A DNA stretch of 64,000 nt from a bacterium (GTDB lineage: Bacteria; Bacillota; Clostridia; Lachnospirales; Lachnospiraceae). Shown piece by piece: positions 2,166 through 60,125 of this stretch. A program made the translations under genes and the position numbers. The DNA is taken from the NCBI GenBank assembly GCA_023666335.1, contig JAMPCE010000009.1, positions 1 to 64,000 of the forward strand, written 5' to 3'. Below the pieces are notes generated by a model, which saw only the letters and a list, made by a program, of their open reading frames with translations, was not told where the DNA came from and did not search any database. How positions within the stretch are numbered: the stretch's first letter is position 1; every line of letters starts with the position of its first letter.

Positions 2166-3140
2166 TCAATCAAGTGTTTTCTGGAAATGCTGATAATCTT
2201 TCGTAGAGTTCCAATTCCCGCCCCAGGTAAAGCCGTGTTCGGTAAAGAGGCGGTAGCAGAGGTCGTTTTCATCGATCTTGTAGGGAAAGCTCTTGCTGCG
2301 GTCGGCGTAGATCTCGCTGCCGGGCGGAGAGATATAGTCGCTGCCGTCGCTGTTTCTGCCAAAGACGACATAAGGATTATAGTAGGGGTTTACGTCAATA
2401 GCAAGCCCGTAGGCGTGTTTGGAGAGATTGGTCGTGCCGTCCACCACCCGATAGTTGAAACAGGAGGTATTATTGTCTGACATGGAGGCGGTATCGTCGC
2501 CGTCATACGCATCGATCAGGCAGACGCGCTCAAGGCGGTAATCGTTTCGGTACAGTTCATAGAAAATTTCGACCATATCCTGCGCGACCGCCTGATTGCA
2601 GATCAGTTCGCCGATCTGCTCCTGACCATCAAAGTCAATGTATTTTAATCCCACATAGCGCAGGTCTTCATAGGGAACGGTACAGCCGCTCTCTGGGTAG
2701 GAGATGCCGGTGATCCGTTCTTTGACTGTATCAGTCAAAGGTTCATAAAAAAACCCCTCCTGATAGATTGTGCGATTGATATGAGCGGTCATGGTGTCTT
2801 TCTCCGCCTCCGTGATGTCACTCTTGCTATCAGGATATGCGGCGGAGTTGTCCGCTGTGTCAGCGTCTGTCAGTGCATGATCCGGCGTACTTTCGCCATT
2901 TTTTTCAAAATCTGACACATCTGTCGTTTGTGACACGGAAGAATTGACTGTATCAGTCAACACCTCCTCACCATCGGGAGCCTGTGTACCGTATGCCAGT
3001 TCCGGATTGTTGTGGGCATAGTCCGACAGCGTTTCCGAGCCTGTCAAGAAGCGCGCCAGAAAAGCGCAGATCAGGATGAGCGTGAGCAGAAAGAGGGCGG
3101 GGCCTGCGGCCTGCCGCAGCAGGGATTTGATATCGTGCAT
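2166..3140 (-). CDS. Membrane-anchored M15-family peptidase (D-Ala-D-Ala carboxypeptidase / L-Ala-D-Glu endopeptidase type)
   Basis: Zinc peptidase that should trim peptidoglycan stem peptides outside the cell. The 324-aa protein has one N-terminal membrane segment (about residues 13-33), an acidic Ser/Thr/Asp-rich linker to about residue 120, and a C-terminal M15 domain. The zinc site is visible as SKHAYGLAIDVNPYYNPYV (the His and the Asp) plus YQHF near the end for the second His. The start is supported by AAAGGA nine bases before the ATG. The gene stands alone between a shared terminator and the HigBA operon. It carries three copies of the interspersed TGAC-N7-GTCA palindrome (2622, 2722, 2944), two of which encode LTDTV. 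Whether it acts as a DD- or an LD-peptidase cannot be decided from sequence alone. Confidence 0.85.
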   Translation of the reverse strand: MHDIKSLLRQAAGPALFLLTLILICAFLARFLTGSETLSDYAHNNPELAYGTQAPDGEEVLTDTVNSSVSQTTDVSDFEKNGESTPDHALTDADTADNSAAYPDSKSDITEAEKDTMTAHINRTIYQEGFFYEPLTDTVKERITGISYPESGCTVPYEDLRYVGLKYIDFDGQEQIGELICNQAVAQDMVEIFYELYRNDYRLERVCLIDAYDGDDTASMSDNNTSCFNYRVVDGTTNLSKHAYGLAIDVNPYYNPYVVFGRNSDGSDYISPPGSEIYADRSKSFPYKIDENDLCYRLFTEHGFTWGGNWNSTKDYQHFQKTLD

Positions 3141-3189
3141 GATCTCATGTCCTTTCCCGTTGTTTCATAATGGGGCTTTTGATGATACA

Positions 3190-3483
3190 TTATTTAGGTG
3201 TTGCTTCCAGCGGCACAACAGCCAGCGTTTTTCCCAATGGGGCTAATACTTTTAGAATGGTTGTTAATTGCGGGTTGGTACTGCCCTTTTCCATTCTTGC
3301 AATGATGGGCTGCTTTACGCCGCTTAATTCTTCCAGTTTCTTTTGACTGATTCCTTTTTCCTGCCTTGCCTTGATCAGTTCCCCGATAATTGCCACGCGA
3401 AGATCACTTTCCACTATTTCCTCCGGCGTGAATAATTCTTTTCGTACATCATCCCAATTGCTGCCAATAGCACTATTATTCAT
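3190..3483 (-). CDS. higA: HigA-type antitoxin (XRE helix-turn-helix)
   Basis: A 97-aa DNA-binding antitoxin. The C-terminal half holds a Cro/C1-type helix-turn-helix ([20 protein letters not shown] then PIIARMEKG), as in HigA antitoxins. It is the second gene of a toxin-first pair and overlaps the toxin gene by 8 bases, so the two are translated together. In the HigBA family the antitoxin neutralises the toxin and represses the shared promoter. A perfect palindrome covering the -35 box of that promoter (3874-3899) is the likely operator. Confidence 0.88.
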
Positions 3484-3838
3484 TGTTTAGGCCCCTTTCT
3501 TTTAAGTCTGCCAGTTCACGCTTTGCCTTTTTTATTTCTCTGGCTGGTGTTTTCTGGGTCTTTTTCATAAACTGGTGAAGCATTACAAAACTGCCTTTTT
3601 CCCATGCGACAAATAAAATTCTGTCTCGTAAGGGCCGCAATTCCCATATATCGCCGTCCAGATGTTTTATATATGGCTCTCCGACAGCAATACCGTGAAG
3701 TCTTAAAGCCTCGATATAATCTTGTATTTTGTTAAGTTTTATGCGGCTGTCTTTATCCCTTTTATTTGCAAGCTTTCTCATATAGTCGATTACCGGCTCT
3801 TTCCCGCTCCTGTCTCTGTAAAAATGTATCTGATACAA
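3476..3838 (-). CDS. higB: HigB-like RelE-superfamily toxin (phage Gp49-like)
   Basis: A 120-aa protein of the HigB/Gp49-like group of the RelE/ParE superfamily, which usually cleaves mRNA on the ribosome. Supporting segments are the N-terminal strand [15 protein letters not shown], the core [13 protein letters not shown] and [20 protein letters not shown], followed by a basic C-terminal helix. The start codon is TTG at 3838, ten bases after AGGAGG. The order is toxin before antitoxin, as in higBA. The operon has its own near-consensus promoter. Activity as a toxin is inferred from the family. Confidence 0.85.
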
Positions 3839-3863
3839 GGTTATTATTCCTCCTGTATAGAAT

Positions 3864-9789: not shown

Positions 9790-9800
9790 GGATTTTTTTC

Positions 9801-11471: not shown

Positions 11472-12211
11472 GCAGACCAGCCTCCATCCAGCGTGATGAT
11501 CTGTCCGGTCAGATAGTCGGGCGCATCGAGAAGCGAGAGAACGAGACGGGCAGCCTCCTCTGGTTGACCGATTCGGTCAGCAGGAATTTCAGCCACAAGC
11601 TGCTGCAGATCGTCCTCGGATAAATGGCGGTTCATCTCCGTGTCGATCAGACCGCAGGCGATGGCGTTGACCTGAATGCCGCTCGGAGCCAGTTCCTTGG
11701 CGAGTGCTTTCGTAAAGGCGTTCACCCCGCCCTTGGAGGCGGAATAAGCCACTTCCATAGAGGCGCCCACATTTCCCCAGATGGAGGAAATGTTGAGAAT
11801 CTTTCCGGCGTGGCGCCGTAACATCAGGGGGATTGCCAGACGGCAGGTGTAGAACAGGGCGTTCAAGTTCACATCCATGAGGGACTGCCACTGCTCGACG
11901 CTCATTTCATGGAGAAGCCCCACATGGGAGACGCCGGCGTTGTTGACTAATACAGTCAACTCCTTGATCTCGGAAAAGACGCGCTCCACGTCCCGCTCGT
12001 TTCCCATATCCGCTAAAATAGGCGTACACGGGACGGAAAAAGTTTCTGACAGGCGATATGACAGCTGTGTCAGTTCTGCTTCCGAATGCCGACAGGTGAG
12101 ATAGAGCCGATAGCCCTCTGCCGCCAGCGCCTCCGCGATGGCGCGCCCGATGCCCCGCGATGCTCCTGTTACCAGAGCTGTTTTAGTTGCGGCTGTTTGT
12201 TGTTCTGTCAT
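11468..12211 (-). CDS. Short-chain dehydrogenase/reductase (FabG-like; possibly the EF-P 5-aminopentanone reductase YmfI)
   Basis: A 247-aa NAD(P)H-dependent reductase of the classical SDR type. It shows the cofactor motif TGASRGIG, the structural NNAG motif, and the catalytic Ser-Tyr-Lys set (NISSIWG, then YSASK). The closing LTGQIITLDGGW is typical of FabG-like enzymes. A lone SDR outside a fab operon in Firmicutes is often YmfI, which reduces the 5-aminopentanone group on elongation factor P; sequence alone does not separate that from other ketoreductases. Two interspersed palindromes lie in the gene (11564, 11943). Confidence 0.85.
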   Translation of the reverse strand: MTEQQTAATKTALVTGASRGIGRAIAEALAAEGYRLYLTCRHSEAELTQLSYRLSETFSVPCTPILADMGNERDVERVFSEIKELTVLVNNAGVSHVGLLHEMSVEQWQSLMDVNLNALFYTCRLAIPLMLRRHAGKILNISSIWGNVGASMEVAYSASKGGVNAFTKALAKELAPSGIQVNAIACGLIDTEMNRHLSEDDLQQLVAEIPADRIGQPEEAARLVLSLLDAPDYLTGQIITLDGGWSA

Positions 12212-20163: not shown

Positions 20164-21315
20164 ATGGATTTTACGTTAAGCAAAGAACATGAAATGGCGA
20201 GAGCGTTATTCAAAGAGTTCGCTGAAAAAGAAGTAAAGCCTCTCGCGCAGGAAGTGGATGAGACGGAAGTTTTCCCGAGAGGAACCGTCGAAAAGATGGC
20301 GAAGCTGGGCTTCCTCGGCATTCCTGTTCCCAAGGAGTACGGCGGGCAGGGGTGCGATCCGCTTACATACGCGATGTGCGTGGAGGAGCTTTCCAAGGTC
20401 TGCGGCACCACAGGCGTTATCGTTTCCGCACACACTTCTCTGTGCTGCGATCCGATCATGACCTACGGCACCGAGGAGCAGAAGCAGAAATATCTGGTTC
20501 CCCTGGCAAAGGGTGAGAAGCTGGGCGCATTCGGTCTGACCGAGCCCGGCGCAGGGACCGACGCACAGGGACAGCAGACAAAGGCTGTTCTTGACGGCGA
20601 CGAGTGGGTACTGAACGGTTCCAAGTGCTTCATTACCAACGGTAAAGAAGCTGACGTATATGTCATTTTTGCGATCACCGGAACGGTGGAAAAGAGAGGA
20701 CGTATGCAGAAAGAGATCTCCGCATTTATCGTGGAGAAAGGAACGCCCGGCTTTACTTTCGGTACGAAAGAGAAGAAGATGGGTATCCGCGGTTCTTCCA
20801 CCTATGAGCTGATCTTTACCGACTGCCGCATCCCGAAGGATAATCTCTTAGGGCAGCAGGGCAAGGGCTTCAACATCGCGATGCACACGCTGGACGGCGG
20901 TCGTATCGGTATCGCTTCTCAGGCGCTGGGTCTTGCCGAGGGCGCACTGGAGAACACGATCGCTTATGTAAAAGAGAGAAAGCAGTTCGGCAGAGCCATC
21001 GGCGCTTTCCAGAACACGCAGTTCCAGCTGGCTGACATGGCGACCAAGGTAGAGGCGGCGCAGCTCCTTGTTTACAAGGCAGCTATGGCGAAAGCTACCC
21101 AGAAAGTATATTCCGTAGAGGCGGCAAAGGCGAAACTCTATGCGGCGGAGGTCGCGATGGAAGTGACCACCAAGGCGGTACAGCTTCACGGCGGTTACGG
21201 CTACATCAGAGAGTACGACGTAGAGCGCATGATGCGTGACGCGAAGATTACGGAGATCTACGAAGGCACGAGCGAAGTGCAGAGAATGGTTATTTCCGGC
21301 GCTCTTTTGAAATAG
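20164..21315 (+). CDS. bcd: Butyryl-CoA dehydrogenase
   Basis: FAD enzyme that reduces crotonyl-CoA to butyryl-CoA in complex with EtfAB. In Clostridia this is coupled to ferredoxin reduction by flavin-based electron bifurcation. The 383-aa acyl-CoA dehydrogenase shows GAFGLTEPGAGTDAQGQQTK, CFITNGKEADVYV, RKQFGRAIGAFQNTQFQLAD, QLHGGYGYIREYDVERMMRD and the catalytic Glu in IYEGTSEVQRM (about residue 366). It lies directly upstream of etfB, as expected for a bifurcating Bcd-Etf complex. Confidence 0.96.
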   Translation: MDFTLSKEHEMARALFKEFAEKEVKPLAQEVDETEVFPRGTVEKMAKLGFLGIPVPKEYGGQGCDPLTYAMCVEELSKVCGTTGVIVSAHTSLCCDPIMTYGTEEQKQKYLVPLAKGEKLGAFGLTEPGAGTDAQGQQTKAVLDGDEWVLNGSKCFITNGKEADVYVIFAITGTVEKRGRMQKEISAFIVEKGTPGFTFGTKEKKMGIRGSSTYELIFTDCRIPKDNLLGQQGKGFNIAMHTLDGGRIGIASQALGLAEGALENTIAYVKERKQFGRAIGAFQNTQFQLADMATKVEAAQLLVYKAAMAKATQKVYSVEAAKAKLYAAEVAMEVTTKAVQLHGGYGYIREYDVERMMRDAKITEIYEGTSEVQRMVISGALLK

Positions 21316-21346: not shown

Positions 21347-22129
21347 ATGAAAATTGTGGTTTGTGTGAAACAGGTTCCTGATACCGCAGGCGGCGTCAAG
21401 TTCAATCCCGATGGAACGCTTGACAGAGGCGCTATGCTCACGATCATGAACCCCGATGATAAAGCAGGTCTGGAGGCTGCCCTCAGATTAAAAGATCAGT
21501 ACGGTGCAGAGGTAACTGTCGTAACGATGGGTCTTCCCAAGGCGGAAGAGGTCCTGCGCGAGGCGATGGCTATGGGCGCAGACAAGGGCGTGCTGGTGAC
21601 AGACAGAGTGCTGGGCGGCGCTGATACCTGGGCGACTTCCACGACGCTTGCAGGCGCGATCCGGAATCTGGAGTATGATCTGATCATTACCGGCCGTCAG
21701 GCGATCGACGGCGATACCGCACAGGTTGGTCCGCAGATCTCCGAGCACCTTGACATTCCTGTCATTTCCTATGCGCAGGATATCAAGATCGAGGGCGACA
21801 GCGTTGTGGTGGAGCGTCAGTATGAGGACAGATACCATGTGGTAAAGGCAAAAATGCCCTGCCTGATCACCGCGCTTTCCGAGTTGAACGAGCCCAGATA
21901 TATGACGCCGGGCGGCATCTTTGACGCTTACAAGCAGGAGATCACCGTTTGGGGCAGAGCGGACTTAAAAGACGTTGACGATGCGAACTTAGGTCTGAAA
22001 GGTTCCCCGACCAAGATCGCGAAAGCGTCCGATAAGGTGAGAAAGGGCGCAGGCGAAAAGGTCTCCCTCGATCCCGACGAGTCCGTAAGCTATATTGTTG
22101 ATAAGTTAAAAGTAAAGCATGTGATCTGA
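21347..22129 (+). CDS. etfB: Electron transfer flavoprotein beta subunit
   Basis: A 260-aa EtfB subunit (MKIVVCVKQVPDTAGGVKFN start; MNPDDKAGLEAALRLKDQYG; VLREAMAMGADKGVLVTD; TGRQAIDGDTAQVGPQ). In bifurcating Etf complexes the beta subunit carries the FAD that receives electrons from NADH. The gene is 31 bases after bcd and 51 before etfA, fitting the bcd-etfB-etfA order. Expression is probably strong, since an AAGGAG site precedes it. Confidence 0.95.
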   Translation: MKIVVCVKQVPDTAGGVKFNPDGTLDRGAMLTIMNPDDKAGLEAALRLKDQYGAEVTVVTMGLPKAEEVLREAMAMGADKGVLVTDRVLGGADTWATSTTLAGAIRNLEYDLIITGRQAIDGDTAQVGPQISEHLDIPVISYAQDIKIEGDSVVVERQYEDRYHVVKAKMPCLITALSELNEPRYMTPGGIFDAYKQEITVWGRADLKDVDDANLGLKGSPTKIAKASDKVRKGAGEKVSLDPDESVSYIVDKLKVKHVI

Positions 22130-33839: not shown

Positions 33840-33906
33840 CCCATATAGTCAATTTTGAATAAAGAACGGCATATGGAATATGTGATTGCACGGAGATTCA
33901 GGAATA

Positions 33907-38072: not shown

Positions 38073-38117
38073 GAGAATGCGAAGCATTCTCTGGATCGTC
38101 GCCGTTAAGCGACGATC
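38073..38117 (-). other. Two tandem hairpins at the end of tetR
   Basis: GAGAATGC/GCATTCTC (38073-38091) and GATCGTCGC/GCGACGATC (38094-38117) are perfect adjacent stems; the second overlaps the tetR stop codon. Neither has a clear T run, so they may stabilise the transcript end rather than terminate. Confidence 0.55.
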
Positions 38118-38740: not shown

Positions 38741-38791
38741 TTGACCTTATCGGTCAGGTTTTACTATAACACAATGTCGGACAGGATTCAA
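38741..38791 (-). promoter_or_regulatory. tetR promoter and operator
   Basis: Minus strand: -35 TTGAAT (38791-38786), -10 TATAGT (38768-38763), spacer 17. The palindrome TGACC-N5-GGTCA (core of 38741-38757) lies just downstream of the -10. Confidence 0.75.
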
Positions 38792-38967: not shown

Positions 38968-39351
38968 ATGGCAAAAAAATTCGGTAAGTTATTGTTGGTG
39001 ACAGCGGCTCTTGGCGCCGTAGCGGGAGGGGCGTACTATTACCTTAAGGGTAAGGACGCTCTGATGGACGATGATTTTGACGATGATGACTTCGATAATT
39101 TCGACGAAGATCTGGACGAGGGCGATTCCGACCGCAACTATGTGGATCTGGATCTGAAAAAGGCGGAGGACAATCTGAAAGAAGCCGTGGCGGGCGAGTT
39201 CAAAGAGGGCATTCAGGCAGCGAAAGCCGAAGCGGCGGATAAGGTCGTGGGCGGCGCGCAGAAAGCGGAAGAGAAAGCAGAAGAAAAAGCAGAAGAAAAG
39301 GTGGAGGAGTTCTTTGACGACGACACCGAGGAGGAGTATCTGGACGAATAG
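38968..39351 (+). CDS. Small acidic membrane-anchored protein (YtxH-like)
   Basis: A 127-aa protein with an N-terminal hydrophobic segment (KLLLVTAALGAVAGGAYYYL), then a strongly acidic stretch (DDDFDDDDFDNFDEDLDEGD) and an Ala/Glu/Lys helix with EKAEEKAEEK repeats. This resembles YtxH-type general-stress proteins, but the similarity is compositional only. AAAGGAGAAC precedes ATG 38968. An AT-rich TATAAT-containing stretch (about 38920-38930) is the likely -10 region. A perfect 15-bp terminator follows. Confidence 0.7.
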   Translation: MAKKFGKLLLVTAALGAVAGGAYYYLKGKDALMDDDFDDDDFDNFDEDLDEGDSDRNYVDLDLKKAEDNLKEAVAGEFKEGIQAAKAEAADKVVGGAQKAEEKAEEKAEEKVEEFFDDDTEEEYLDE

Positions 39352-39430: not shown

Positions 39431-40191
39431 TATTTATTTGCCTGATACGGCGGGTCGGCGGGATACCCGCCTTTTAATTTCTGCATCCCGCGCTGGATGG
39501 CGTCTTTGGAATTTTTCCAGTCGGCGTCCTTATTGCGGTAGTCGAACTTCTCCACCAGCCAGGAGACATCTTCTGACAGACGTGTCATATTTTCCTCCAT
39601 CAGCGGGAAGACCATATCGTAAAAGTCTTTTTTCTCCTTATCATTCAGGCGGCTGTCCGCCGCTTCGCACAGATCGCCGAAATGGTGCAGGCAGAACCCT
39701 TTGCTTTCCCGCACCTTTGTGCGAAATTCGGCGTCCTTTTTGAACATCACGAAAAAGGTATCCAGATAGCGCTCGTAGGTGTCGGCATAACGCTTGCAGA
39801 TGTAGCAGGAGGCGTCTTTTTCCGCTGCCCAGACGCCGATGGGGTTGGTGCGCCCGGGCTGTTTTTTAAGCTTATCCTTGAGGGAAGTTTTACCGGGCGA
39901 AAAAGCTTTGATCTTTTCGTGGAGTTCCTGATTCATCCGCTGATAGTGCGTCTTTAAGATCCAGGCGTTTCCGAGCGTGTTGCCGTAGTCGAACATTTTC
40001 TGAAAATGATTTCTGCAAAATCCCTCTTTGTCGGTCTGCTCCCTGACGTCGCTCTCCATGTAGGAAGAGCCGGAGCCGAGGACAAAATCCAGAAGATCCT
40101 GTTCCACATTGCGCTCGATAAAGCAGAATGGACATTCGTCCTGCGCGTTTATGGCGTCGTTTAAGGGGATGGTGTAAAGTTTTTCTTTCAT
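39430..40191 (-). CDS. DUF6062 family protein with Cys/His motifs
   Basis: A 253-aa cytoplasmic protein. It holds two similar Cys-x2-Cys...Cys/His units: ECPFCFIERN with GFCRNHF in the first half and SCYICKRYAD with GFCLHHFGDL in the second, suggesting an internal duplication that binds metal. I associate this pattern with DUF6062, common in Lachnospiraceae and of unknown function. ATG 40191 has AAAGGAG at a good distance; the longer open frame upstream to 40602 has no support. Confidence 0.75.
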   Translation of the reverse strand: MKEKLYTIPLNDAINAQDECPFCFIERNVEQDLLDFVLGSGSSYMESDVREQTDKEGFCRNHFQKMFDYGNTLGNAWILKTHYQRMNQELHEKIKAFSPGKTSLKDKLKKQPGRTNPIGVWAAEKDASCYICKRYADTYERYLDTFFVMFKKDAEFRTKVRESKGFCLHHFGDLCEAADSRLNDKEKKDFYDMVFPLMEENMTRLSEDVSWLVEKFDYRNKDADWKNSKDAIQRGMQKLKGGYPADPPYQANK

Positions 40192-43661: not shown

Positions 43662-44255
43662 ATGAGAACGATCAACATGATGCTCACTCCATATAATTTC
43701 AGAAGAGGGGACGCCGCACGCATCCGCTATCTTGTCATCCACTATACGGGCGCTTTCGGCACCGCCGAGGAGAACTGCCGCTTCTTTGCGGCGCAGAAGA
43801 GAAACAGCTCGGCGCATTATTTTGTGGGATATGAAGGTGAGATCTGGCAGAGCGTGGAGGACGAAAATATTGCATGGCATTGCGGAGCAAAGCAGTATCG
43901 GCATCCGGAATGCCGCAATGCCAACAGTATCGGGATCGAACTCTGCGTGAGGAAGAAAGACAAAAGCAGCAGGAAAGCGTCGGATCCGGACTGGTATTTT
44001 GAGGACGCGACGGTGGAGGCGGCGGCGGAGCTTTCTAGGTATCTGATGAAGCGGTACGGCATTCCCGCCTCCCGCGTCCTGCGGCATTACGACGTGACGG
44101 GAAAAGAGTGCCCCGCGCCTTATGTACATAACAATACGAAGCATACCTGGGAAGAATTTCAGAAAGTTATCCGCTGGGGAAGCTTTGACTTGATTGGTCA
44201 ACTGTGGAAGATATTCTCCGCATTTTTCCGCCATAAAAATAACGATATCGGGTGA
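43662..44255 (+). CDS. N-acetylmuramoyl-L-alanine amidase (Amidase_2 type)
   Basis: A 197-aa zinc amidase related to T7 lysozyme and PGRP. Zinc ligands appear as YLVIHYTGAFGT (first His), AWHCGAKQYRHPE and LRHYDVTGKECPAPY (second His and Cys), with IGIELCV between. No signal peptide is seen, so it may be exported by another route or act on internalised muropeptides. ATG 43662 has GAGGGA close upstream; the open frame reaches 43575 but overlaps the deaminase gene. It lies seven bases after the deaminase stop. The 3' end carries one interspersed palindrome (44185). Confidence 0.85.
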   Translation: MRTINMMLTPYNFRRGDAARIRYLVIHYTGAFGTAEENCRFFAAQKRNSSAHYFVGYEGEIWQSVEDENIAWHCGAKQYRHPECRNANSIGIELCVRKKDKSSRKASDPDWYFEDATVEAAAELSRYLMKRYGIPASRVLRHYDVTGKECPAPYVHNNTKHTWEEFQKVIRWGSFDLIGQLWKIFSAFFRHKNNDIG

Positions 44256-44301: not shown

Positions 44302-45120
44302 ATGATGACAAAGATTCCCGTTGTAAATGAGGATGCGGAAAGGATCCTTTCACAGGTTCGGTGTTTTGCCCTGGATATGGACGGCACGGTCTATCTGGGG
44401 GAGCGCTGGATCGACGGCGCAAAAGAGTTTCTCGCACGGATCGAAGCGTCCGGAAGAAGCTATGTCTTTGTGACGAACAATTCTTCCAAAAACGCGGCGG
44501 TGTATGTGGAGAAACTAGAGCGCATGGGGCTTTCCGTGGGAGCGGAAAAGATCGTCACTTCGGGGCAGGCGGCGATTCATTATCTGAAACGGCATTTTCC
44601 GGGGAAGAAGGTCTTTCTTTTGGGGAACGAGCTTTTGCAGGCGGAGTTTTTGCAGGCGGGCATCGTTTTGGAAGACGCGTCCCCCGATGTGGTGGTGACG
44701 GCATTTGACACGTCGCTCACCTATGCGAAACTGTGCAAAGTCTGCGATCATGTGCGCGCAGGGCTTCCCTATCTGGCGACCCATCCGGACTATAACTGTC
44801 CGACGGAGGACGGATTTATTCCGGACGCCGGAGCGATCCACGCCTTTATCCACGCTTCCGCGTTTCGTTATCCGGACCGTGTGATCGGCAAGCCGAACGA
44901 GGATATCATTGCATATTTGACCGAACGGGTCAATACGGAGCGGGAGCATATCGCTATGGTGGGGGACAGGCTTTACACGGATATCGCGGCGGGCAGGAAT
45001 CACGGTCTCAAAAGCGTGCTCGTCTTAAGCGGGGAGGCTTCTTTGGAGGACGTAAAGGAGTCGGAAGTTGTGCCGCACCTGATCTTTTCTTCGGTGCGGG
45101 AGATGATTCCGTTTTTATAG
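44302..45120 (+). CDS. HAD-IIA (NagD-like) phosphatase
   Basis: A 272-aa haloacid-dehalogenase phosphatase of subclass IIA. Motif I is FALDMDGTVYLG (nucleophile Asp at about 25), motif II VTNNSSKN, motif III Lys in VIGKPNED and motif IV MVGDRLYTDI. The C2a cap lies between. Family members dephosphorylate nucleotides or sugar phosphates; the substrate is not predictable. It is followed after 24 bases by the EAL gene on the same strand. A palindrome copy (44917) encodes LTERV. Confidence 0.92.
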   Translation: MMTKIPVVNEDAERILSQVRCFALDMDGTVYLGERWIDGAKEFLARIEASGRSYVFVTNNSSKNAAVYVEKLERMGLSVGAEKIVTSGQAAIHYLKRHFPGKKVFLLGNELLQAEFLQAGIVLEDASPDVVVTAFDTSLTYAKLCKVCDHVRAGLPYLATHPDYNCPTEDGFIPDAGAIHAFIHASAFRYPDRVIGKPNEDIIAYLTERVNTEREHIAMVGDRLYTDIAAGRNHGLKSVLVLSGEASLEDVKESEVVPHLIFSSVREMIPFL

Positions 45121-45144: not shown

Positions 45145-47040
45145 ATGAATATCTATGCACAGGTGTGCGGCATGATCCTGCTTGTCGTGATGATCGCATT
45201 TTACACAAGGTACAAGTCCCTGCGGCTGGGTACGCAGATCGCGTTTCAGGCGCTCATGACGGGGATGCTTTTGTGTATTTTCTTTGATATGTTCTCGATC
45301 TGGGCGATCGTTCATCTGATGCGGGATCACCTGACGCTCGTTTATGCCATCTGCAAGATCTATCTGATGACGATCGTGCTGGTGGCGCTGCTCGGGTTTC
45401 TGTATGAGTGCGCGGATGTGTACGCGGGGCAGAAGCGGTTCTGGACGGTGACATATATCGGCTGCGCCTTTTTTCTGGCGGAGAGTACCGTGATCGCCTG
45501 CCTGCCGATCGGCGTTTACAAAATGGCGGGCGTGGTGTATTCGGCGGGTCCGGCAGTCCTTGTGACGTACGCGTTTGCGGGCAGCTTTCTCATTTCCAAC
45601 GCCATCTTTACGATCCGCAATCAAAAGCTGGGAAATCCCCGCAGGACGCAGGTGATCCTGATCTGGATGGGGATGTGGGTCGCGGCTGCCGTGGTGCAGT
45701 TTTTGAACAATGACCTGCTGCTCGTGGGCTATGCGGGGGCGCTCGGCGTGCTGGTGATCTTTTTCAGGCTGGAGAATCCGGAGTACCTGACGGACCGGGT
45801 CACGGGGCTGTACAATCACGACGCGCTGCTGTTCTACGCGAGAAAACTTTACGGCGGCGGGAAAAAATTTGCGGTCATGTCGGTCTGGTGGAGTCTGGGA
45901 CTTGGACAGGCGGACGAAAATCAAAGGGAAGAGGTTGCGATGCGGGCTTTTGCAAAGAGGCTTCCAAAATTTGAACGCACGAAAGTCTTTAAGATGGCGG
46001 ACGACGAAGTGTGGCTCGTCTTTGAGACGCCGGAGGACGCCGAGCGTCATCTGGAAAAAATACGGAGTTTTGTGGAGTACGGGAGAAAAGAGATCGGCGG
46101 CATCGCGCAGACGGAATATACCTATCTGCCGGACACCACGCTGGTGCGGGATCATCAGGAGATGGTGCAGCTGATGCAGTACGCGCGGTGGAAGAGCCGC
46201 GACCACGGCACGGCGAATTTTAAGCGGGTGGACAGTGAGTTTGTCGAGCAGATGCGTCAGGAAAAGCGCATGGAGCAGATGCTCGAAGACGCCATGCAGG
46301 AGAACCGGATCGAAGTCTTCTACCAGCCTATTTATTCCACCCGGCAGAAGAAGTTTGTGAGCGCGGAGGCGCTGGTCAGAATGCGCGACCGCGAGGGGCA
46401 TCTGGTGCCGCCGGGCGCGTTTATTTCCGTGGCGGAGGCAAACGGCAAGATCCTGCCGCTGGGAGAGATCGTGTTTGACAAGGTGTGCCGCTTCTTTACC
46501 GCAGAAAGGCTGGAACAGTACGGTCTGCATTATATCGAAGTGAATCTGTCGGTCATCCAGTGCGGCTATTCCGAACTGGCGGACGATTACATAGCCATTA
46601 TGGAGAAATACCAGATCGATCCGAAACACATCAATCTGGAGATCACGGAGTCCGCGTCTATGGCGGCGAAGAAGACGCTTCTGGAAAATATGCGGCGGCT
46701 CATGGAATACGGCGTGTATTTCTCGCTGGACGACTTCGGCACCGGGCAGTCGAACTTAAATTACATCGTGGATATGCCCGTCAACATCGTAAAATTTGAC
46801 CGGGAGATGAGCCAGGCTTTCTTCCGCGACGAGAAGGCGAAATATGTGATGAACGCCGCCATGCAGATGATCCACGGCATGAAATTAAAGATCGTGTCGG
46901 AGGGGATCGAGACAAAGGAGCAGTATCTGGCGATGGAAGAGCTGGACATCGACTATATCCAGGGCTACTATTTTTCAAAGCCCCTGCCCGAGCGGGAGTT
47001 TTTGACCTTTTTGCAGGAAAATCAGGAAAGTGCAGGATAA
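45145..47040 (+). CDS. Membrane c-di-GMP phosphodiesterase (7TM sensor, degenerate GGDEF, EAL)
   Basis: A 631-aa protein. About seven N-terminal membrane helices (residues 1-210) are followed by a degenerate GGDEF domain (LTDRVTGLYNHDALLFYARK; the signature is replaced by KMADDEVWLVF, about 290) and a complete EAL domain (about 390-625). The EAL catalytic set is intact: SAEALVRM, VNLSVIQ, NLEITES, DDFGTGQSNLNY, KFDRE, SEGIET and QGYYFSKP. It should hydrolyse c-di-GMP to pGpG, lowering the signal and favouring motility, in keeping with the flagellin in the window. The N-terminal sensor ligand is unknown. One palindrome copy (45787) encodes LTDRV at the domain boundary. Confidence 0.92.
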   Translation: MNIYAQVCGMILLVVMIAFYTRYKSLRLGTQIAFQALMTGMLLCIFFDMFSIWAIVHLMRDHLTLVYAICKIYLMTIVLVALLGFLYECADVYAGQKRFWTVTYIGCAFFLAESTVIACLPIGVYKMAGVVYSAGPAVLVTYAFAGSFLISNAIFTIRNQKLGNPRRTQVILIWMGMWVAAAVVQFLNNDLLLVGYAGALGVLVIFFRLENPEYLTDRVTGLYNHDALLFYARKLYGGGKKFAVMSVWWSLGLGQADENQREEVAMRAFAKRLPKFERTKVFKMADDEVWLVFETPEDAERHLEKIRSFVEYGRKEIGGIAQTEYTYLPDTTLVRDHQEMVQLMQYARWKSRDHGTANFKRVDSEFVEQMRQEKRMEQMLEDAMQENRIEVFYQPIYSTRQKKFVSAEALVRMRDREGHLVPPGAFISVAEANGKILPLGEIVFDKVCRFFTAERLEQYGLHYIEVNLSVIQCGYSELADDYIAIMEKYQIDPKHINLEITESASMAAKKTLLENMRRLMEYGVYFSLDDFGTGQSNLNYIVDMPVNIVKFDREMSQAFFRDEKAKYVMNAAMQMIHGMKLKIVSEGIETKEQYLAMEELDIDYIQGYYFSKPLPEREFLTFLQENQESAG

Positions 47041-47138: not shown

Positions 47139-48629
47139 ATGAGAAAGAGCGGCGTTTTACTGCCTGTATCTGCTATCCCTTCAAAGTATGGGATCGGCGC
47201 CTTCTCAAAGGAGGCGTATGAATTTATTGATCTGTTGGAAATGGCGGGACAATCCTATTGGCAGATCCTGCCGCTGGGGCCTACGGGTTACGGGGATTCC
47301 CCGTATCAGTCTTTTTCCACGTTTGCGGGCAATCCTTACTATATCGATCTGGAGACGCTGATCGAGGACGGGTATCTGACAAAGAAAGACTGCGCGCAGT
47401 ACGATTTCGGCGGTGACGACGCTTATGTGGATTATGAAAAGATCTATCTGTCCCGCTTCAAAGTCTTAAAAAAGGCTTTCCAAAACAGCCACATCGAAAA
47501 AGATGCGGATTACCTGAACTTCGTGGAGGAAAATGCCTACTGGCTGAAAGATTACGCCCTGTACATGGCGGTGAAAAATGCGTTCGGCGGTAAGAGCTGG
47601 AGCGAGTGGGACGAGGAGATCAAGCGCAGAAAGCCTGCGGCGATGAAACGGTATGCGGAAAAGTATGCGGAGGAAATCGCATTTTACCAGTTCCAGCAGT
47701 ATCTGTTCGCCAAACAGTGGTTTGCCTTAAAGGCTTACGCGAATAAAAAGAAGATCGATATCATCGGGGATATCCCGATCTATGTAGCGTTCGACAGTTC
47801 GGACACCTGGGCGAATCCGGAACTTTTCCAGTTCGACGAGACGCTTACGCCCACGGCGGTGGCAGGCTGCCCGCCCGATGCTTTCTCGGCAACGGGGCAG
47901 CTTTGGGGGAATCCGCTCTACCGCTGGGATTATCATAAGAAGACGGACTATGCCTGGTGGATGAAGCGGATCGGCTATTGTTACAAACTCTACGACGTGG
48001 TGCGGATCGACCATTTCCGGGGATTCGACGAGTATTATTCCATCCCTTACGGGGATCCCACGGCGGAGTTCGGGCATTGGGAAAAGGGGCCGGGCTACGA
48101 CATCTTCCGCACGATGAAAGCGACGCTCGGCAAAAAAGCGGTGATCGCGGAGGATCTCGGATTTTTGACCGATTCGGTCATTAAGCTGGTGAAAAAGACA
48201 GGGTATCCCGGCATGAAGATCTTGCAGTTTGCCTTTGATTCCCGCGAGGACAGCGATTATCTGCCGCATAATTATACCGCAAACAGCATTGTCTATACGG
48301 GAACGCACGATAACGATACGACGCTTGGCTGGTATGAGAAACTGCCGCGGAAAGACAGGGCGTTTGCAAAGCGCTACCTCAATATCCGCTCCAAAAAGGA
48401 CGTACAGTGGGAGTTTATCCGGGCGGCTATGGCGAGCGTATCGGAGACCTGTGTGATCCCCATGCAGGATTATCTGGGACTTGGCGGAGAAGCGCGGACG
48501 AATCTCCCCTCTACGCTTGGCACGAACTGGAAGTGGCGGATGAAGCCCGGGCAGTTTACGGAAGAACTGGCGGAGCGGATCCTTTCCATGACAACACTTT
48601 ACGCAAGAGCGGTAAAGCCGGAGAAATAA
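47139..48629 (+). CDS. malQ: 4-alpha-glucanotransferase (amylomaltase)
   Basis: GH77 enzyme that transfers maltodextrin segments between 1,4-glucans in starch, glycogen or maltose use. The 496-aa protein has LPLGPTGYGDSPYQSFSTFA near the start, VRIDHFRGFDEYY with the nucleophile Asp, IAEDLGFLTDSV with the general acid Glu and TGTHDNDTTLGWY for the third acidic residue. ATG 47139 is preferred (AAAGGA 12 bases before); GTG 47130 is too close to it. No other glycan gene is adjacent. One palindrome copy (48165) encodes LTDSV. Confidence 0.95.
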   Translation: MRKSGVLLPVSAIPSKYGIGAFSKEAYEFIDLLEMAGQSYWQILPLGPTGYGDSPYQSFSTFAGNPYYIDLETLIEDGYLTKKDCAQYDFGGDDAYVDYEKIYLSRFKVLKKAFQNSHIEKDADYLNFVEENAYWLKDYALYMAVKNAFGGKSWSEWDEEIKRRKPAAMKRYAEKYAEEIAFYQFQQYLFAKQWFALKAYANKKKIDIIGDIPIYVAFDSSDTWANPELFQFDETLTPTAVAGCPPDAFSATGQLWGNPLYRWDYHKKTDYAWWMKRIGYCYKLYDVVRIDHFRGFDEYYSIPYGDPTAEFGHWEKGPGYDIFRTMKATLGKKAVIAEDLGFLTDSVIKLVKKTGYPGMKILQFAFDSREDSDYLPHNYTANSIVYTGTHDNDTTLGWYEKLPRKDRAFAKRYLNIRSKKDVQWEFIRAAMASVSETCVIPMQDYLGLGGEARTNLPSTLGTNWKWRMKPGQFTEELAERILSMTTLYARAVKPEK

Positions 48630-50293: not shown

Positions 50294-50797
50294 TCAGAAT
50301 GTTTGACGGCTCAGATTGGAATTATGGTAGGCGGGATCGTTGGTAACGTCTTGACTAAACCAGTCAAGCGGGAGAAACGCTTCCGCCGTTTCCTTGTCCG
50401 GAAATTCGACTTCCGCAATGACGAGCGGCGCAAAGGGCGGCTCGAAAATGTCCAGTTCTACGCATAGACTGAGTTGGTCAATATTATTTTCGAAAACTGA
50501 CAGGAGTGTCATATCAAACTGCGGGCGGTCGATGGGAATGAGATAGCGCTTTTTGGAGATGAGATTGCCGTCCGCTTTTTTCAGCAGATGTTCGTAGGAT
50601 GCCGCATTTAGGGGGAGATTGTACTCCTCGCGGGCAAGCAGCCCCTTTCCCTTGTAGGTCAGGTAGTAGGAGTCGTCCTCCCTGCGGATCCGGATGACCG
50701 GATCGGTATTGAGGTATGCCTGCTCGATGATGCGGCAGGGGTAGGAAGTCAGGTTTTCGGGTAAATGCGAGATGGTGAATTTGCGTTCGATCTCCAT
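50294..50797 (-). CDS. CYTH-domain protein (triphosphate tunnel metalloenzyme)
   Basis: A 167-aa CYTH domain: EIERKFTI at the N-terminus, RIRREDDSYYLTYKGKG, ISKKRYLIPI, ELDIF and AEVEF lining the tunnel. Bacterial members hydrolyse inorganic triphosphate or other triphosphates; some act as class IV adenylate cyclases. The substrate cannot be told. A strong hairpin (50814-50847) lies in its leader. A copy of the palindrome is near the 3' end (50351). Confidence 0.88.
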   Translation of the reverse strand: MEIERKFTISHLPENLTSYPCRIIEQAYLNTDPVIRIRREDDSYYLTYKGKGLLAREEYNLPLNAASYEHLLKKADGNLISKKRYLIPIDRPQFDMTLLSVFENNIDQLSLCVELDIFEPPFAPLVIAEVEFPDKETAEAFLPLDWFSQDVTNDPAYHNSNLSRQTF

Positions 50798-55791: not shown

Positions 55792-58185
55792 ATGGATAAT
55801 TGGAATCAGTTGGAAAACGGAACGGGCAGCGCGGACGCCCTTGCCCTTTTGCAGCAGGATATGCTTCCGACCGTGACTTTGCGGGGCTTGACGATCCTGC
55901 CCGGTATGGTGATCCATTTTGACTTGAGCAGGGGGTCTTCGATCGCCTCGGTGGAGCAGGCGATGCTCAGAGATCAGCGGCTGGTCACGGTGACCTGCAA
56001 GGGTGACGGAGAGGAGACGCCGGGGCTTGACGGGATCTATCAGGTGGGAACGCTTGTATTGATCAGGCAGGTCAGCAAACTTCCGGGGCAGGTTTTGCGC
56101 GTGCTGGTGGAGGGGCTTTCCAGAGTCCGTATTTACGGTATTGTAGAGGCGGATACGGGCATAATGACACAGGTGTCATATGAGAAAGATGACAGCGCGG
56201 ACATTGACGAGGTCACGCATGAGGCGATGACCAGAACGGTCAAAGAGACGCTGGCTGCCTACAGCGCCTGCTTTCCCAAAGTGGGGAAAGCGGTGCAGGA
56301 TCAGATCGAGGAGGGAATGCCCCTCGGGAAGCTGTTGGACAGCGTCACCATCAATATGCCGCTCCAGACAGCGGATAAACAACGGATCCTGGGAGCGGTC
56401 TCCGTGCGGGAGCGCTTTACGATCCTGACGGGGATCCTCATGCGGGAAGTGGAGATCCTCCGCATCAAAAACGATCTGGCGAAGGATATCAGACAGCGGA
56501 TCGACAAGAACCAGCGCGATTATATCCTGCGGGAGCAGTTACAGTATATCAAAGAGGAATTGGGAGAGAACAATACCGACAGCGACGCGGAGCGCTTCCT
56601 TGCCGAGGCGGAGAAACTGAAAGCGAAAGAGGAAGTAAAGGAGAAGATCCGCAAGGAGGTCGCGCGATATACCAACGTGTCCGGCAGCAGTTCCGAGAGT
56701 GCGGTGGAACGGGCTTACATAGAGACTCTTTTGGAACTTCCCTGGGATAAGGTCTCTAAAGACAGCAGGGATCTTGCGCGGGCGGAAAAGATTCTGAACG
56801 AGCAGCATTACGGTCTCGAAAAGGTGAAAGAGCGGATGCTGGAATTTCTGGCGGTGCGGATGCTGTCGGGGAAAGCGGGAAGCCAGATCATCTGTCTGGT
56901 CGGACCGCCCGGCACGGGAAAGACTTCCGTAGCAAAGAGCGTGGCGGAGGCGCTAAACAGGCGGTATGTGCGGATCTGCCTCGGCGGCGTGCGGGATGAG
57001 GCGGAGATCAGGGGGCACCGCAAGACCTATGTGGGCGCCATGCCCGGGCGGGTGGCGGCAGCCCTGAAACAGGCGGGCGTCAAAAATCCGCTGATGCTCT
57101 TAGACGAGATCGACAAGCTGGGGAACGACTACAAGGGAGATCCCGCGTCCGCGCTTCTGGAAGTGCTGGACGGGGAGCAGAACCACGCGTTCCGCGATCA
57201 CTATGTAGAGATTCCGCTCGACCTTTCCCAGGTACTCTTTATCGCCACGGCAAACAGCCGGGACGGGATCCCGCGCCCTCTCTTAGACAGGATGGAGATC
57301 ATCGAACTCAACAGCTATACCGCCAACGAGAAGTTCCATATCGCCAGAGAGCATCTGGTGGAAAAGGCGATGAAGAAAAACGGCGTCAAAAAGACGGAGA
57401 TCGCTTTTTCCGACGAAGCGCTGAAAAATATCGTGCGCTTCTATACGAGGGAGGCGGGCGTGCGCGGATTGGAACGGCAGATTGGCGCGGTCTGCCGCAA
57501 AGAGGCGAGGGAGATCGTAAAGCGGCGCAAAAATAAAGTGACCGAACTGGTCAATATAACGCCCGAGAATCTGGAACACTATCTGGGAAAGCCCAAGTAT
57601 CGGGAAGATAAAGTAAATGAAAAGCCGGAGATAGGTATTGTCAGAGGGCTTGCGTGGACCAGCGTAGGCGGCGATACGTTACAGATCGAGGTGAATCTCA
57701 TGCCCGGAGAGGGAAAAATTGACCTAACCGGTCAAATGGGAGACGTCATGAAAGAATCTGCGCGGACAGCTTTAAGTTATGTCCGCTCTGTCAGCGGGAA
57801 GTACAAGGTGGCGGAAACCTTTTACAAAAAACACGATTTTCATGTCCACATCCCGGAGGGCGCGGTGCCAAAGGACGGTCCTTCCGCAGGAATCACTATG
57901 GCGACGGCGCTTCTTTCCGCAGTAACGCGGACGCCGGTGCGGGCGGATCTGGCGATGACCGGAGAAGTCACTCTGCGCGGCAGGGCGCTTCCCATCGGCG
58001 GGCTGAAAGAAAAACTTTTAGCGGCGCAGACGGCGGGCGTAAAGACCGTTCTGGTGCCGCGGGAGAACGAAAAAGACGTTGAAGAAGTTCCGGAGGAGAT
58101 CAAAGAGGGGATGGAGATCGTCTTCGTGGAGACGATGGAGGAAGTGACGAAGCACGCCCTGCTCTTTCGGGCAAAGGACGCCTGA
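55792..58185 (+). CDS. lon: ATP-dependent Lon protease
   Basis: Hexameric AAA+ serine protease for damaged and regulatory proteins. The 797-aa LonA has the N-terminal substrate domain (LPTVTLRGLTILPGMVIHFD), Walker A GPPGTGKTSVAKS (about 367), Walker B LMLLDEIDKLGNDY and a C-terminal protease domain with the catalytic Ser in KDGPSAGITMA (about 698) and the Lys in GLKEKLLAA (about 740). It follows clpX closely and precedes engB, the common lon-engB order. Three palindrome copies lie in it (56227, 57538, 57719); the last uses the rare Leu codon CTA. Confidence 0.97.
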   Translation: MDNWNQLENGTGSADALALLQQDMLPTVTLRGLTILPGMVIHFDLSRGSSIASVEQAMLRDQRLVTVTCKGDGEETPGLDGIYQVGTLVLIRQVSKLPGQVLRVLVEGLSRVRIYGIVEADTGIMTQVSYEKDDSADIDEVTHEAMTRTVKETLAAYSACFPKVGKAVQDQIEEGMPLGKLLDSVTINMPLQTADKQRILGAVSVRERFTILTGILMREVEILRIKNDLAKDIRQRIDKNQRDYILREQLQYIKEELGENNTDSDAERFLAEAEKLKAKEEVKEKIRKEVARYTNVSGSSSESAVERAYIETLLELPWDKVSKDSRDLARAEKILNEQHYGLEKVKERMLEFLAVRMLSGKAGSQIICLVGPPGTGKTSVAKSVAEALNRRYVRICLGGVRDEAEIRGHRKTYVGAMPGRVAAALKQAGVKNPLMLLDEIDKLGNDYKGDPASALLEVLDGEQNHAFRDHYVEIPLDLSQVLFIATANSRDGIPRPLLDRMEIIELNSYTANEKFHIAREHLVEKAMKKNGVKKTEIAFSDEALKNIVRFYTREAGVRGLERQIGAVCRKEAREIVKRRKNKVTELVNITPENLEHYLGKPKYREDKVNEKPEIGIVRGLAWTSVGGDTLQIEVNLMPGEGKIDLTGQMGDVMKESARTALSYVRSVSGKYKVAETFYKKHDFHVHIPEGAVPKDGPSAGITMATALLSAVTRTPVRADLAMTGEVTLRGRALPIGGLKEKLLAAQTAGVKTVLVPRENEKDVEEVPEEIKEGMEIVFVETMEEVTKHALLFRAKDA

Positions 58186-58205
58186 CGCTTCGGCTGGAGG
58201 TAACT

Positions 58206-58796
58206 ATGGTAATCAAAAATGTCAATCTGGAGACGGTGTGCGGCGTCACCAGCAAGCTGCCCGAGAACAGCCTGCCGGAGATCGCTTTCGCGGGGAAGAG
58301 CAATGTGGGAAAATCTTCCCTGATCAACGGGCTGATGAACCGAAAGTCGCTGGCGCGCACCAGTTCTTCCCCCGGGAAGACCCAGACCATCAATTATTAT
58401 AACATCAACGGAGAACTGTATTTTGTGGATCTGCCCGGGTACGGCTATGCGACCGCCAATGAAAAGGTCAAGGCGACCTGGGGCAAGATGATCGAGGATT
58501 ATCTGCATCAGTCAAAGCAGATACGGGCGGTCTTTCTGCTCATTGACATCCGGCACGAACCCTCGGAGAATGACCGGATCATGTATGACTGGATCGTGAG
58601 CAGAGGGTATCATCCGATCATCATCGCGACGAAACTGGATAAGATCAAGCGCAGCCAGATCGAAAGGCACAAGAAGATGATTTGTGACACGCTTGACGTA
58701 GAAGATGACACGATTGTCATACCTTATTCCGCCCTGAGCAAACAGGGGCGGGAGGAAATCTATGAGCTGCTGGATCGAATCTTGGAAAATGCGTGA
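58206..58796 (+). CDS. engB: Ribosome biogenesis GTPase EngB/YsxC
   Basis: GTPase needed for assembly of the large ribosomal subunit. The 196-aa protein has G1 GKSNVGKSSLING, G2 around SSSPGKTQTINYY, G3 DLPGYG, G4 ATKLDKIKR and G5 PYSALSKQG. It starts 21 bases after lon with an RBS GGAGG, and the next gene follows after 30 bases. A TGAC-N6-GTCA palindrome (58705) lies near the 3' end. Confidence 0.96.
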   Translation: MVIKNVNLETVCGVTSKLPENSLPEIAFAGKSNVGKSSLINGLMNRKSLARTSSSPGKTQTINYYNINGELYFVDLPGYGYATANEKVKATWGKMIEDYLHQSKQIRAVFLLIDIRHEPSENDRIMYDWIVSRGYHPIIIATKLDKIKRSQIERHKKMICDTLDVEDDTIVIPYSALSKQGREEIYELLDRILENA

Positions 58797-58826
58797 TCGA
58801 GACAGGACGATCCGAAGGAGAATTTT

Positions 58827-60125
58827 ATGAACCCTGCGTGGAAAACCTATCTGAAAGCGGCGCTGAATCTGTTTACGGTGTTGGTCGCGGCGTTTTTGTG
58901 TATTTTTCTGCTGCCCCGCTGTATCTGGTTCTTTATGCCGTTTATCATGGGATGGATCATTTCCCTGATCGCTTCTCCCGTGGTGCGGTTTTTTGAGGAA
59001 AAACTGAAAGTAAAGCGAAAAGCGATGTCGGCGGTCGTGATCGTAGCGGTGCTGGCGGTCGTGGTGCTTTTCGTCTATCTGCTGCTTGCAAAGCTGGTCA
59101 GGGAAGGCGTCAATTTCTTTCATGAATTGCCGAATATCTGGAATACTATTTTAGCAGAGCTGAATAAAGTAGGAGCCAATCTACAGGTCGTTTACGACAG
59201 GATGCCCGCCAATGTGCAGGAGACGATTGACCAAATCGGTCAGGACATGGGAGATTATGTGAGCGGCATCTTGGGAAACATCGAGCTGCCTTCTTTTGAG
59301 GCGGTGGGAAATGTGGCGAAGCAGATTCCGGATATTTTTCTCGGCGTGGTGATGTGTCTGCTTTCCGCTTACTTTTTTGTCGCGGATAAAGGGTATCTGG
59401 CAGCGGCGGCGGAAAAATATATCCCGACCTCGGTGCGCTATCATCTCAATCTGATCCGCAGAAGTTTCCGCAATGCGGTGGGCGGGTATTTTCGTGCGCA
59501 GCTTAAGATCGAGTGCTGGATCTATATCCTTCTGGTGATCGGACTGATGATCTTGGATGTCGATTACGCTTTTCTGGTGGCGTTCGGCATTGCGATTCTG
59601 GATTTTTTGCCGGTGTTCGGTACGGGGACGGTGATGCTTCCGTGGGCGGTCATCGAATTGCTGTCGGAAAATTATAAAATGATGTTCGGGCTGATCGCCA
59701 TCTGGCTGATCGGACAGCTCGTCCGTCAGGTGATCCAGCCGAAGATCGTGGGAGATTCCATCGGGATGGACGCGATACCGACATTATTCCTGCTCTATAT
59801 CGGATACAAAGCGGCGGGCGTGATCGGCATGATCTTTGCCGTGCCGATCGGGATCATTCTGGTCAACCTGTACGAAGAAGGCGCTTTTGACACTACGGCA
59901 AAGAGTCTGCGGATCCTCACGGCGGGTTTTAACCGTTTCCGCAGGATCCGTCCCGAAGATATGGCGGCGGCGGAAGCGTACGAGCGGGAGACGAAAGCTG
60001 TTTACCGACAGAATGCGGAACAGGACAAGGCGGAGAAAGAACAGCTTCACGAGGCTTCCCAGATCAAACTGGAGGAGCCGCAGATGCTCAAAAAGATCAA
60101 GGATAAGAAAAAGACGAAATCATGA
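58827..60125 (+). CDS. AI-2E family transporter (PerM/UPF0118)
   Basis: A 432-aa polytopic membrane protein with about eight helices. Family features are PFIMGWIISLIASPVVRFFE near the N-terminus, the FVADKGYL region and the C-terminal core ILDFLPVFGTGTVMLPWAVI then GDSIGMDAIPTLFLLYIGYK. The family was named from an E. coli member thought to export autoinducer-2, but many members are Na+/H+ antiporters or of unknown function. The C-terminal tail is highly charged and ends KDKKKTKS. The stop overlaps the start of the VanZ-like gene by four bases (ATGA). Confidence 0.88.
   Translation: MNPAWKTYLKAALNLFTVLVAAFLCIFLLPRCIWFFMPFIMGWIISLIASPVVRFFEEKLKVKRKAMSAVVIVAVLAVVVLFVYLLLAKLVREGVNFFHELPNIWNTILAELNKVGANLQVVYDRMPANVQETIDQIGQDMGDYVSGILGNIELPSFEAVGNVAKQIPDIFLGVVMCLLSAYFFVADKGYLAAAAEKYIPTSVRYHLNLIRRSFRNAVGGYFRAQLKIECWIYILLVIGLMILDVDYAFLVAFGIAILDFLPVFGTGTVMLPWAVIELLSENYKMMFGLIAIWLIGQLVRQVIQPKIVGDSIGMDAIPTLFLLYIGYKAAGVIGMIFAVPIGIILVNLYEEGAFDTTAKSLRILTAGFNRFRRIRPEDMAAAEAYERETKAVYRQNAEQDKAEKEQLHEASQIKLEEPQMLKKIKDKKKTKS

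Follow-up and report, generated by a model that had tools for sequence, protein, structure and literature searches.

A palindrome repeated inside Lachnospiraceae genes and in front of a tetR gene suggests that a once-local repressor may now bind throughout the chromosome

We analyzed a 64,000-nucleotide stretch from the genome of a gut-dwelling member of the Lachnospiraceae (assembly GCA_023666335.1, contig JAMPCE010000009.1, positions 1 to 64,000), hereafter the window, in which a gapped palindrome, TGAC-N7-GTCA, recurs mostly within genes. The repeat is real: its sharper form, TGACY-N5-RGTCA, which we call P1, occurs 243 times in this genome (G000; 3.10 Mb in 117 contigs) versus 4 times for the control, its arms are conserved beyond protein constraint, it commonly stands as an operator before one tetR gene, and its abundance is associated with the presence of that gene. 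Judged from sequence comparisons, this pattern suggests that a repressor which once acted locally now binds along the whole chromosome, and that it may help to organise the chromosome or to time division.

Over-representation and conservation of P1

The window holds 20 exact matches to TGAC-N7-GTCA, against a mean of 0.61 and a maximum of 2 in 100 dinucleotide shuffles; a preliminary description of this DNA had put the chance expectation at about one match. That description had listed 19 copies, each with its start placed one base early, on the flanking base; all of these were recovered, and one further copy, at 57956, had been overlooked. When TGAC and GTCA arms were combined with spacers of 0 to 15 bases, N7 gave 20 matches, N6 gave 8, and every other spacer gave 0 to 3. 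The sharper P1 form accounts for 19 of the 20 sites, the exception being 45788. The sites, all exact matches, are as follows.

2623..2637, no strand, P1 site
2723..2737, no strand, P1 site
2945..2959, no strand, P1 site
11565..11579, no strand, P1 site
11944..11958, no strand, P1 site
26261..26275, no strand, P1 site
33837..33851, no strand, P1 site overlapping a stop codon (open reading frame calls)
34761..34775, no strand, P1 site in glnS
35007..35021, no strand, P1 site in glnS
38742..38756, no strand, P1 site, proposed autoregulatory tetR operator, shortly after a -10-like TATAGT
44186..44200, no strand, P1 site, intergenic (open reading frame calls)
44918..44932, no strand, P1 site
45788..45802, no strand, weaker P1-like site with G at position 5
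48166..48180, no strand, P1 site
50352..50366, no strand, P1 site
56228..56242, no strand, P1 site in lon
57539..57553, no strand, P1 site in lon
57720..57734, no strand, P1 site in lon
57956..57970, no strand, P1 site in lon, absent from the earlier list
59228..59242, no strand, P1 site

By crude open reading frame (ORF) calls, 17 of the 20 sites lie wholly within ORFs, which agrees with the earlier statement that most copies are intragenic; the remaining three are 33837, which overlaps a stop codon as had been described, and the intergenic sites 38742 and 44186. The reported preference for two reading frames also held in a wider sample, with 49 of 61 intra-ORF sites (433 kb of the genome) read as [LVM]TxxV, 12 as DxxxQ/H, and none in the third frame. 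The idea that a rare leucine codon, CTA, is used in lon to keep the arms proved weak: the last two bases of that codon belong to the spacer.

Across the whole genome, TGAC-N7-GTCA was found 281 times, compared with 29 for a reversed-pattern control, and 67 sites in 433 kb yielded the consensus ATTGACYGAWTCRGTCAAT. The preliminary description had named codon-shuffled controls and neighbouring spacers as the decisive count, and P1 exceeds both. Synonymous-codon shuffling within each ORF, preserving proteins and codon usage (100 shuffles; 735 ORFs, 807 kb), left a mean of 4.45 sites (standard deviation 2.08, largest 10) versus the 82 observed, an excess of about 18-fold, while P1 arms whose spacer departed by one or two bases in either direction occurred once each in the same ORFs (shuffles 0.95 to 1.64). 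When every 5-mer palindrome was counted over 884 kb at each spacer from 0 to 15, TTGAC-N7-GTCAA ranked top (50, 0.87 expected), followed by TGACA-N4-TGTCA (P2; 41, 0.77 expected) and, besides another P1 form, by ATAAC-N4-GTTAT (P3; 30, 0.48 expected).

Conservation beyond protein constraint, the other check named earlier, was examined by aligning the region around the tetR gene of the window to five relatives of the genus (79 to 82% identity, 27 to 44 kb aligned). All eight core bases were intact at 14 of 17 aligned P1 sites in G113, 9 of 12 in G018, 7 of 13 in G003, 8 of 13 in G034 and 7 of 9 in G015, versus 18 to 28% of control positions that lay close by and were matched for codon phase (binomial 1.6e-6 to 4e-3). 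Core identity at these sites was 0.89 to 0.92 and spacer identity 0.71 to 0.78; the arms, and not the spacer, are conserved.

The tetR gene, its operator and the taxonomic spread of P1

Among the three window sites that are not wholly within ORFs, only 38742 precedes a gene recognised as encoding a DNA-binding regulator. This gene and its divergent neighbour are as follows.

38116..38718, minus strand, TetR-family protein of 200 amino acids, proposed P1 binder (Pfam TetR_N, orthologs, AlphaFold2 model)
38968..39351, plus strand, small, very acidic protein of 127 amino acids with a hydrophobic segment at its N terminus, encoded divergently beside tetR

Because P1 stands in front of its own gene, the TetR protein is the candidate binder; the operator follows the -10-like TATAGT by a few bases, a usual place for a repressor. 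Its TetR_N domain (PF00440) scores 51.6 bits against a cut-off of 24, placing it in the TetR family, and its AlphaFold2 model (predicted local distance difference test score, pLDDT, 94.3) has an all-helical TetR fold. Structure comparison of the model gave an ordinary TetR fold with no special neighbour, HapR and LuxR structures being among the matches; SlmA does not appear among the 50 matches listed, an absence that carries no weight. An ortholog (E ≤ 2e-74) is present in 35 of 37 genus genomes, our own included; of 200 family genomes, 60 contain relatives at E ≤ 1e-15.

The key clue had already been given in the preliminary description, which noted the P1 pattern in the tetR operator. To the 80 named tetR loci kept from 524 relatives, on which all named-locus figures rest, a split by TetR identity and not by taxonomy was applied, giving close loci (L041-L069, at least 66%) and more distant ones (L070-L120); these loci partly overlap the sampled genomes, L041 and contig C5 of G113 being equal in length, so the named loci and the genomes are not independent of each other. 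An operator of the form YGACY-N5-RGTCA is present in the 200 bp before the gene at all 29 close and at 23 of 51 more distant loci (52 of 80), versus 21 of 400 control upstreams of other ORFs in the close set and 0 of 725 in the distant set (21 of 1125). It was found at the Parablautia intestinalis locus and was not found within 200 bp upstream at that of Acetatifactor muris. Orthologs from other genera of the family carry it in 8 of 12 cases, among them the genome G139, where it lies 140 bp upstream of tetR. Since a P1-form operator precedes the gene in many Lachnospiraceae genera, we infer that tetR is autorepressed.

P1 exceeded its control in all 36 genus relatives (20 to 195 sites each, control 0 to 13), the range for the genus reaching 20 to 243 with our own genome. 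The N7 form was likewise above control in all 36, barely so in G023 (112 vs 100), where P1 stood at 34 vs 12. Among 24 other families of the order, N7 counts were raised in some (G057, 66 vs 19; G044, 32 vs 5) and not in others.

The association with the gene was tested in 198 family genomes outside the genus (G000 and G113 removed) with an ortholog threshold of E ≤ 1e-41. The median P1 count was 18.5 in the 26 ortholog carriers versus 7.0 in the 172 other genomes, and at least 28 sites were present in 8 of 26 carriers versus none of the 172; the richest genomes were G139 (135 vs 8 control) and G229 (63 vs 7). Ortholog presence goes with more P1 sites across the family, with exceptions. The eight other genera with an operator have 31, 63, 11, 30, 135, 25, 24 and 26 P1 sites, three without it have 32, 8 and 10, and one with a degenerate operator has 18; Lachnospiraceae bacterium 28-4 has an operator and 10 sites versus 3 for the control. 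Because operator-bearing genera range from 11 to 135 sites, the chromosome-wide spread of P1 looks gradual and secondary to the operator.

A gene similar to that of the acidic neighbour lies near tetR at every one of the 29 close loci and at 22 of the 51 more distant ones (tblastn, low-complexity filter off), matches that the acidic composition of the protein may inflate; in some more distant loci it is found downstream of tetR instead. The protein had no match in Pfam and is a possible partner or target of TetR.

Layout along the chromosome and other palindromes

Inside ORFs lie 82 of 94 sampled P1 sites, distributed over successive deciles of gene length as 4, 10, 8, 9, 11, 13, 6, 9, 9 and 3, the end deciles being lowest (4 and 3 of 82); in an overlapping P1 set the first decile held 2 of 119. 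Sites outside ORFs include the tetR operator itself and one 116 bp before glnS, and another, in contig C23, lies between two ORFs that we take to be grpE and hrcA.

The density of P1 is uneven between contigs, which are unordered along the chromosome (chi-square 48.0, 16 degrees of freedom with the window contig, the window having been chosen for its sites; 31.5, 15 degrees of freedom, p 0.008 without it). The window contig carries 20 P1 in 73 kb, and the tetR region holds 20 sites in G113, 11 in G018, 8 in G003, 8 in G034 and 10 in G015 where 4.4, 3.6, 2.4, 1.5 and 2.8 were expected. This amounts to roughly 3- to 5.5-fold the mean density of the genome over 47 to 80 kb in six genomes, although these are not six independent facts, because many of the sites are shared by descent. 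A 400-kb contig of G018 (C23) is poor in both P1 (10 vs 17.8 expected) and P2 (2 vs 12 expected); 8 of its 9 matches to G137, a closed family genome, fall in the half that contains the terminus, and the first 80 kb of the contig are also low in G+C. This contig hints, not safely, at chromosome domains. The P1-rich contigs C23 and C24 of our own genome map to G137 at 0.73 (8 matches) and 0.92 (1 match), which speaks against a simple exclusion of P1 from the terminus region (Ter). With the stretch between dnaA and the skew switch of G137 taken as 1, the lon gene of the window maps to about 0.68, which is too little for placing the window. As a separate observation, contig C84 of our genome carries three sites that resemble the parS consensus (61855-64097); they lie some 9 to 11 kb away from dnaA, where an origin region would be expected to have them.

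Seven of the eight N6 matches in the window are copies of P2, a palindrome that the preliminary description had missed, as it had the genus-wide extent of P1.

12059..12072, no strand, P2 site TGACA-N4-TGTCA
21751..21764, no strand, P2 site
39574..39587, no strand, P2 site
50498..50511, no strand, P2 site
56165..56178, no strand, P2 site
58706..58719, no strand, P2 site
61009..61022, no strand, P2 site
20652..20665, no strand, TGAC-N6-GTCA off the P2 consensus, left arm TGACG

P2 occurs 175 times in our own genome versus 1 for the control, 17 to 157 times in the genus relatives (36 of 36) and 0 to 7 times in the 24 other families; the 735 ORFs hold 35 copies versus 1.15 in the synonymous-codon shuffles, and one copy lies between dnaA and dnaN (C84, ~74139). 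Because P2 sites are kept in 6 of 6 cases in G113 and rarely in the other four relatives (1 of 4, 1 of 5, 2 of 7 and 1 of 4; control 10 to 15%), P2 seems to turn over faster than P1. Two kinds of candidate binder were rejected. A LacI-family gene (C24, 14706-15701, minus strand) has a perfect P2 49 bp upstream in our genome only; among the 150-bp upstreams of LacI-family genes at 30 genus loci, P2 is found there alone, with a 9/10 match in L173. None of the nine other TetR genes of our genome has P2 directly upstream in the inspected loci, and in L160 a P2 lies inside the TetR gene itself.

Of the 30 P3 copies, from contigs C33, C27, C31, C21, C11 and C29, 21 lie within ORFs, versus 1.05 in the shuffles of the 735 ORFs, and none was found around tetR in six genomes of the genus or in 461 kb of close named tetR loci. 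In 20-kb bins, P3 shows a weak anticorrelation with P1 (Spearman -0.33, p 0.026) and a correlation of 0.47 with G+C. A further palindrome, P4 (RTTGC-N3-GCAAY), was rejected as part of the P1-like set, being an intergenic hairpin of the repetitive extragenic palindrome (REP) type with 19 of 21 copies outside ORFs; these hairpins, often longer-armed, occur at C20 46534, C23 16015, C24 11189 and elsewhere. Separately, the ORF at 1316-2086 of the window contains near-identical internal repeats (RLERVEGKIVQIED...) and probably forms a coiled coil.

A candidate chromosome-wide mark, its rivals and known systems

We consider it moderately probable that P1 is the binding site of the TetR protein and that this autorepressor has turned into a chromosome-wide mark or shaper. 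The preliminary proposal of a site for a chromosome-associated protein is well supported by the operator, the gene association and the conservation, with the binding itself, the autorepression and the function predicted from sequence. In this model, a TetR dimer would bind each P1 through two TTGAC-type half-sites and would repress its own gene via the operator at 38742. P1 sites would have arisen by point mutation in unrelated genes, mainly in the genus and less in some other genera, and would have been retained by selection on the DNA. Together with TetR, the intragenic sites may then form a chromosome mark or architectural contact, as with SlmA, RefZ, Noc and MatP, and a TetR dimer stationed at many points of the chromosome, most closely spaced near tetR itself, could couple chromosome position to division or segregation. 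Promoter control is probably not its main role, because most P1 sites are intragenic and distributed over the length of the genes.

Several results weigh against this reading. The fold of the modelled TetR protein is that of many ordinary repressors, nothing linking the protein to FtsZ or the membrane was found, and 28 of the 51 more distant orthologs have no operator within 200 bp. The association with the gene (one-sided Mann-Whitney 1.1e-9) ignores shared ancestry, and the five relatives used for P1 conservation are mutually non-independent. Raised P1 counts occur in two genomes in which the ortholog was not found (G009, 39 vs 4, 80% complete; G024, 20 vs 2, 68% complete), 15 genomes lacking a close ortholog have 18 to 25 P1 sites, some well over control (G201, 22 vs 2), and four carriers show little or no excess (G250, 5 vs 14; G063, 9 vs 11; G203, 7 vs 5; G086, 8 vs 5). 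The 65 kb with dnaA (C84) hold 8 P1 versus 5.1 expected, near average, and ordering the contigs via G137, 21% of which was sampled, met too little synteny for an origin-to-terminus pattern to be read.

The operator and gene-association evidence would also serve if TetR were a global transcription regulator whose intragenic sites act locally as roadblocks or on internal promoters, and the few sites outside ORFs noted above, together with the fold matches to LuxR and HapR, both global transcription regulators of TetR type, lean the same way. We nevertheless judge this unlikely, as regulons this large are expected to cluster upstream of genes, whereas the sampled sites are overwhelmingly intragenic and spread along genes. 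If P1 sites were decoys or tolerated noise, bound without consequence and perhaps titrating the repressor, the high density around tetR would be usable for titration, and there is precedent in Escherichia coli PhoB, most of whose intragenic sites are described as inert and not conserved in excerpts of PMC10294691. Inert sites, however, should neither stand 18-fold above synonymous shuffles nor keep their arms in relatives, making this quite improbable.

P1 might instead be made and maintained by a DNA methyltransferase or a repair bias, as has been proposed for the cyanobacterial HIP1, a palindrome tied to methyltransferases in excerpts of PMC4390886, and the two further over-represented gapped palindromes inside genes are compatible with this. 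A methyltransferase model does not predict that P1 should front one TetR gene even where P1 is otherwise rare (23 of 51 distant loci versus 0 of 725 controls), and the operator makes a modification site unnecessary; we regard it as very unlikely. The mRNA hairpin offered in the preliminary description, with a 6-bp stem and a 5-base loop, draws on the pairing arms and on the location of most copies in genes. On the coding strand, the bases at positions 5 and 11 combine almost independently of each other (CG 43, TG 29, TA 21, CA 15; homologous regions from six genomes are part of this set). In three of four comparisons, variants keeping a G-U pair occur about as often as variants breaking it (TGGC..GTCA 0 vs TGAC..GCCA 0; TAAC..GTCA 1 vs TGAC..GTTA 2; CGAC..GTCA 10 vs TGAC..GTCG 11), so that pairing maintained by compensatory or G-U changes was not found there; the fourth leans to RNA (TGAT..GTCA 15 vs TGAC..ATCA 8). 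The operator, moreover, adjoins promoter-like sequence of tetR. Recognition of P1 as DNA accounts for the variants better than a hairpin in RNA does, and the hairpin is disfavoured to the point of being highly improbable.

Few lineages are known to have proteins that bind specific sites throughout the chromosome, and the route by which a local regulator turns into such a protein is not understood. In the present case a single TetR ortholog can be traced from an operator and 10 sites (28-4), by way of genera that have 11 to 31, up to genomes holding 63, 135 and 243. Because the same ortholog spans low to high site counts, this transition becomes testable by comparison. The setting is a family common in the gut, for which TetR and P1 offer a concrete candidate for how such bacteria mark their chromosome. 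A broader version, possible if doubtful, is that the genus uses P1 (through TetR), P2 and P3 as chromosome addresses, the autorepressor of P1 having become an architectural or division-timing protein; P1 and P3 may mark different domains, because regionally they tend to exclude each other. If true, this broader version would amount to a Lachnospiraceae domain-marking system with earlier stages, an operator and few other sites, surviving in sister genera.

No treatment of the P1/TetR system was found in the titles or abstract openings of the open PMC papers that our searches listed. A similar layout is that of SlmA of E. coli, a TetR-family protein with tens of palindromic sites across the chromosome, mainly in coding regions (excerpts of PMC3116907 and PMC4726725). 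The likeness lies in a TetR-family protein with many, mostly coding, sites. SlmA differs in its own site, GTGAGTACTCAC, present in about 50 copies, compared with TTGACY-N5-RGTCAA as the inferred site in up to 243 copies here, and in being a DNA-activated FtsZ antagonist, whereas the Lachnospiraceae protein has no known FtsZ link. SlmA sites are excluded from Ter; the observation for P1 is an uneven density between contigs. RefZ of Bacillus subtilis has five sites, located close to oriC and on the chromosome arms, versus 243 here, and the NCBIfam RefZ model scores the TetR protein at 25.6 bits against a cut-off of 180, which excludes membership. RutR of E. coli has a TTGAC half-site, TGAC-N6-GTCA spacing and many intragenic sites, with far fewer sites than P1 here. 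It is a TetR-family protein with a 16-bp palindrome (excerpts of PMC10891134). The NCBIfam RutR model gives 30.5 bits against a cut-off of 368, again outside the family. MatP of E. coli is not a TetR protein. Its site matS, GTGACRNYGTCAC, marks a chromosome domain (excerpts of PMC3116907); matS has the same TGAC/GTCA arms as P1 and differs in its spacer of 3 (7 in P1) and in its 23 sites, confined to Ter. HIP1 of cyanobacteria is, like P1, a palindrome over-represented in the genomes of a group, but it is ungapped, GCGATCGC, and the excerpts of PMC4390886 contain no operator link. The TetR protein thus resembles SlmA and RefZ only by layout: by NCBIfam it is neither RefZ nor RutR, and the SlmA site differs from its own.

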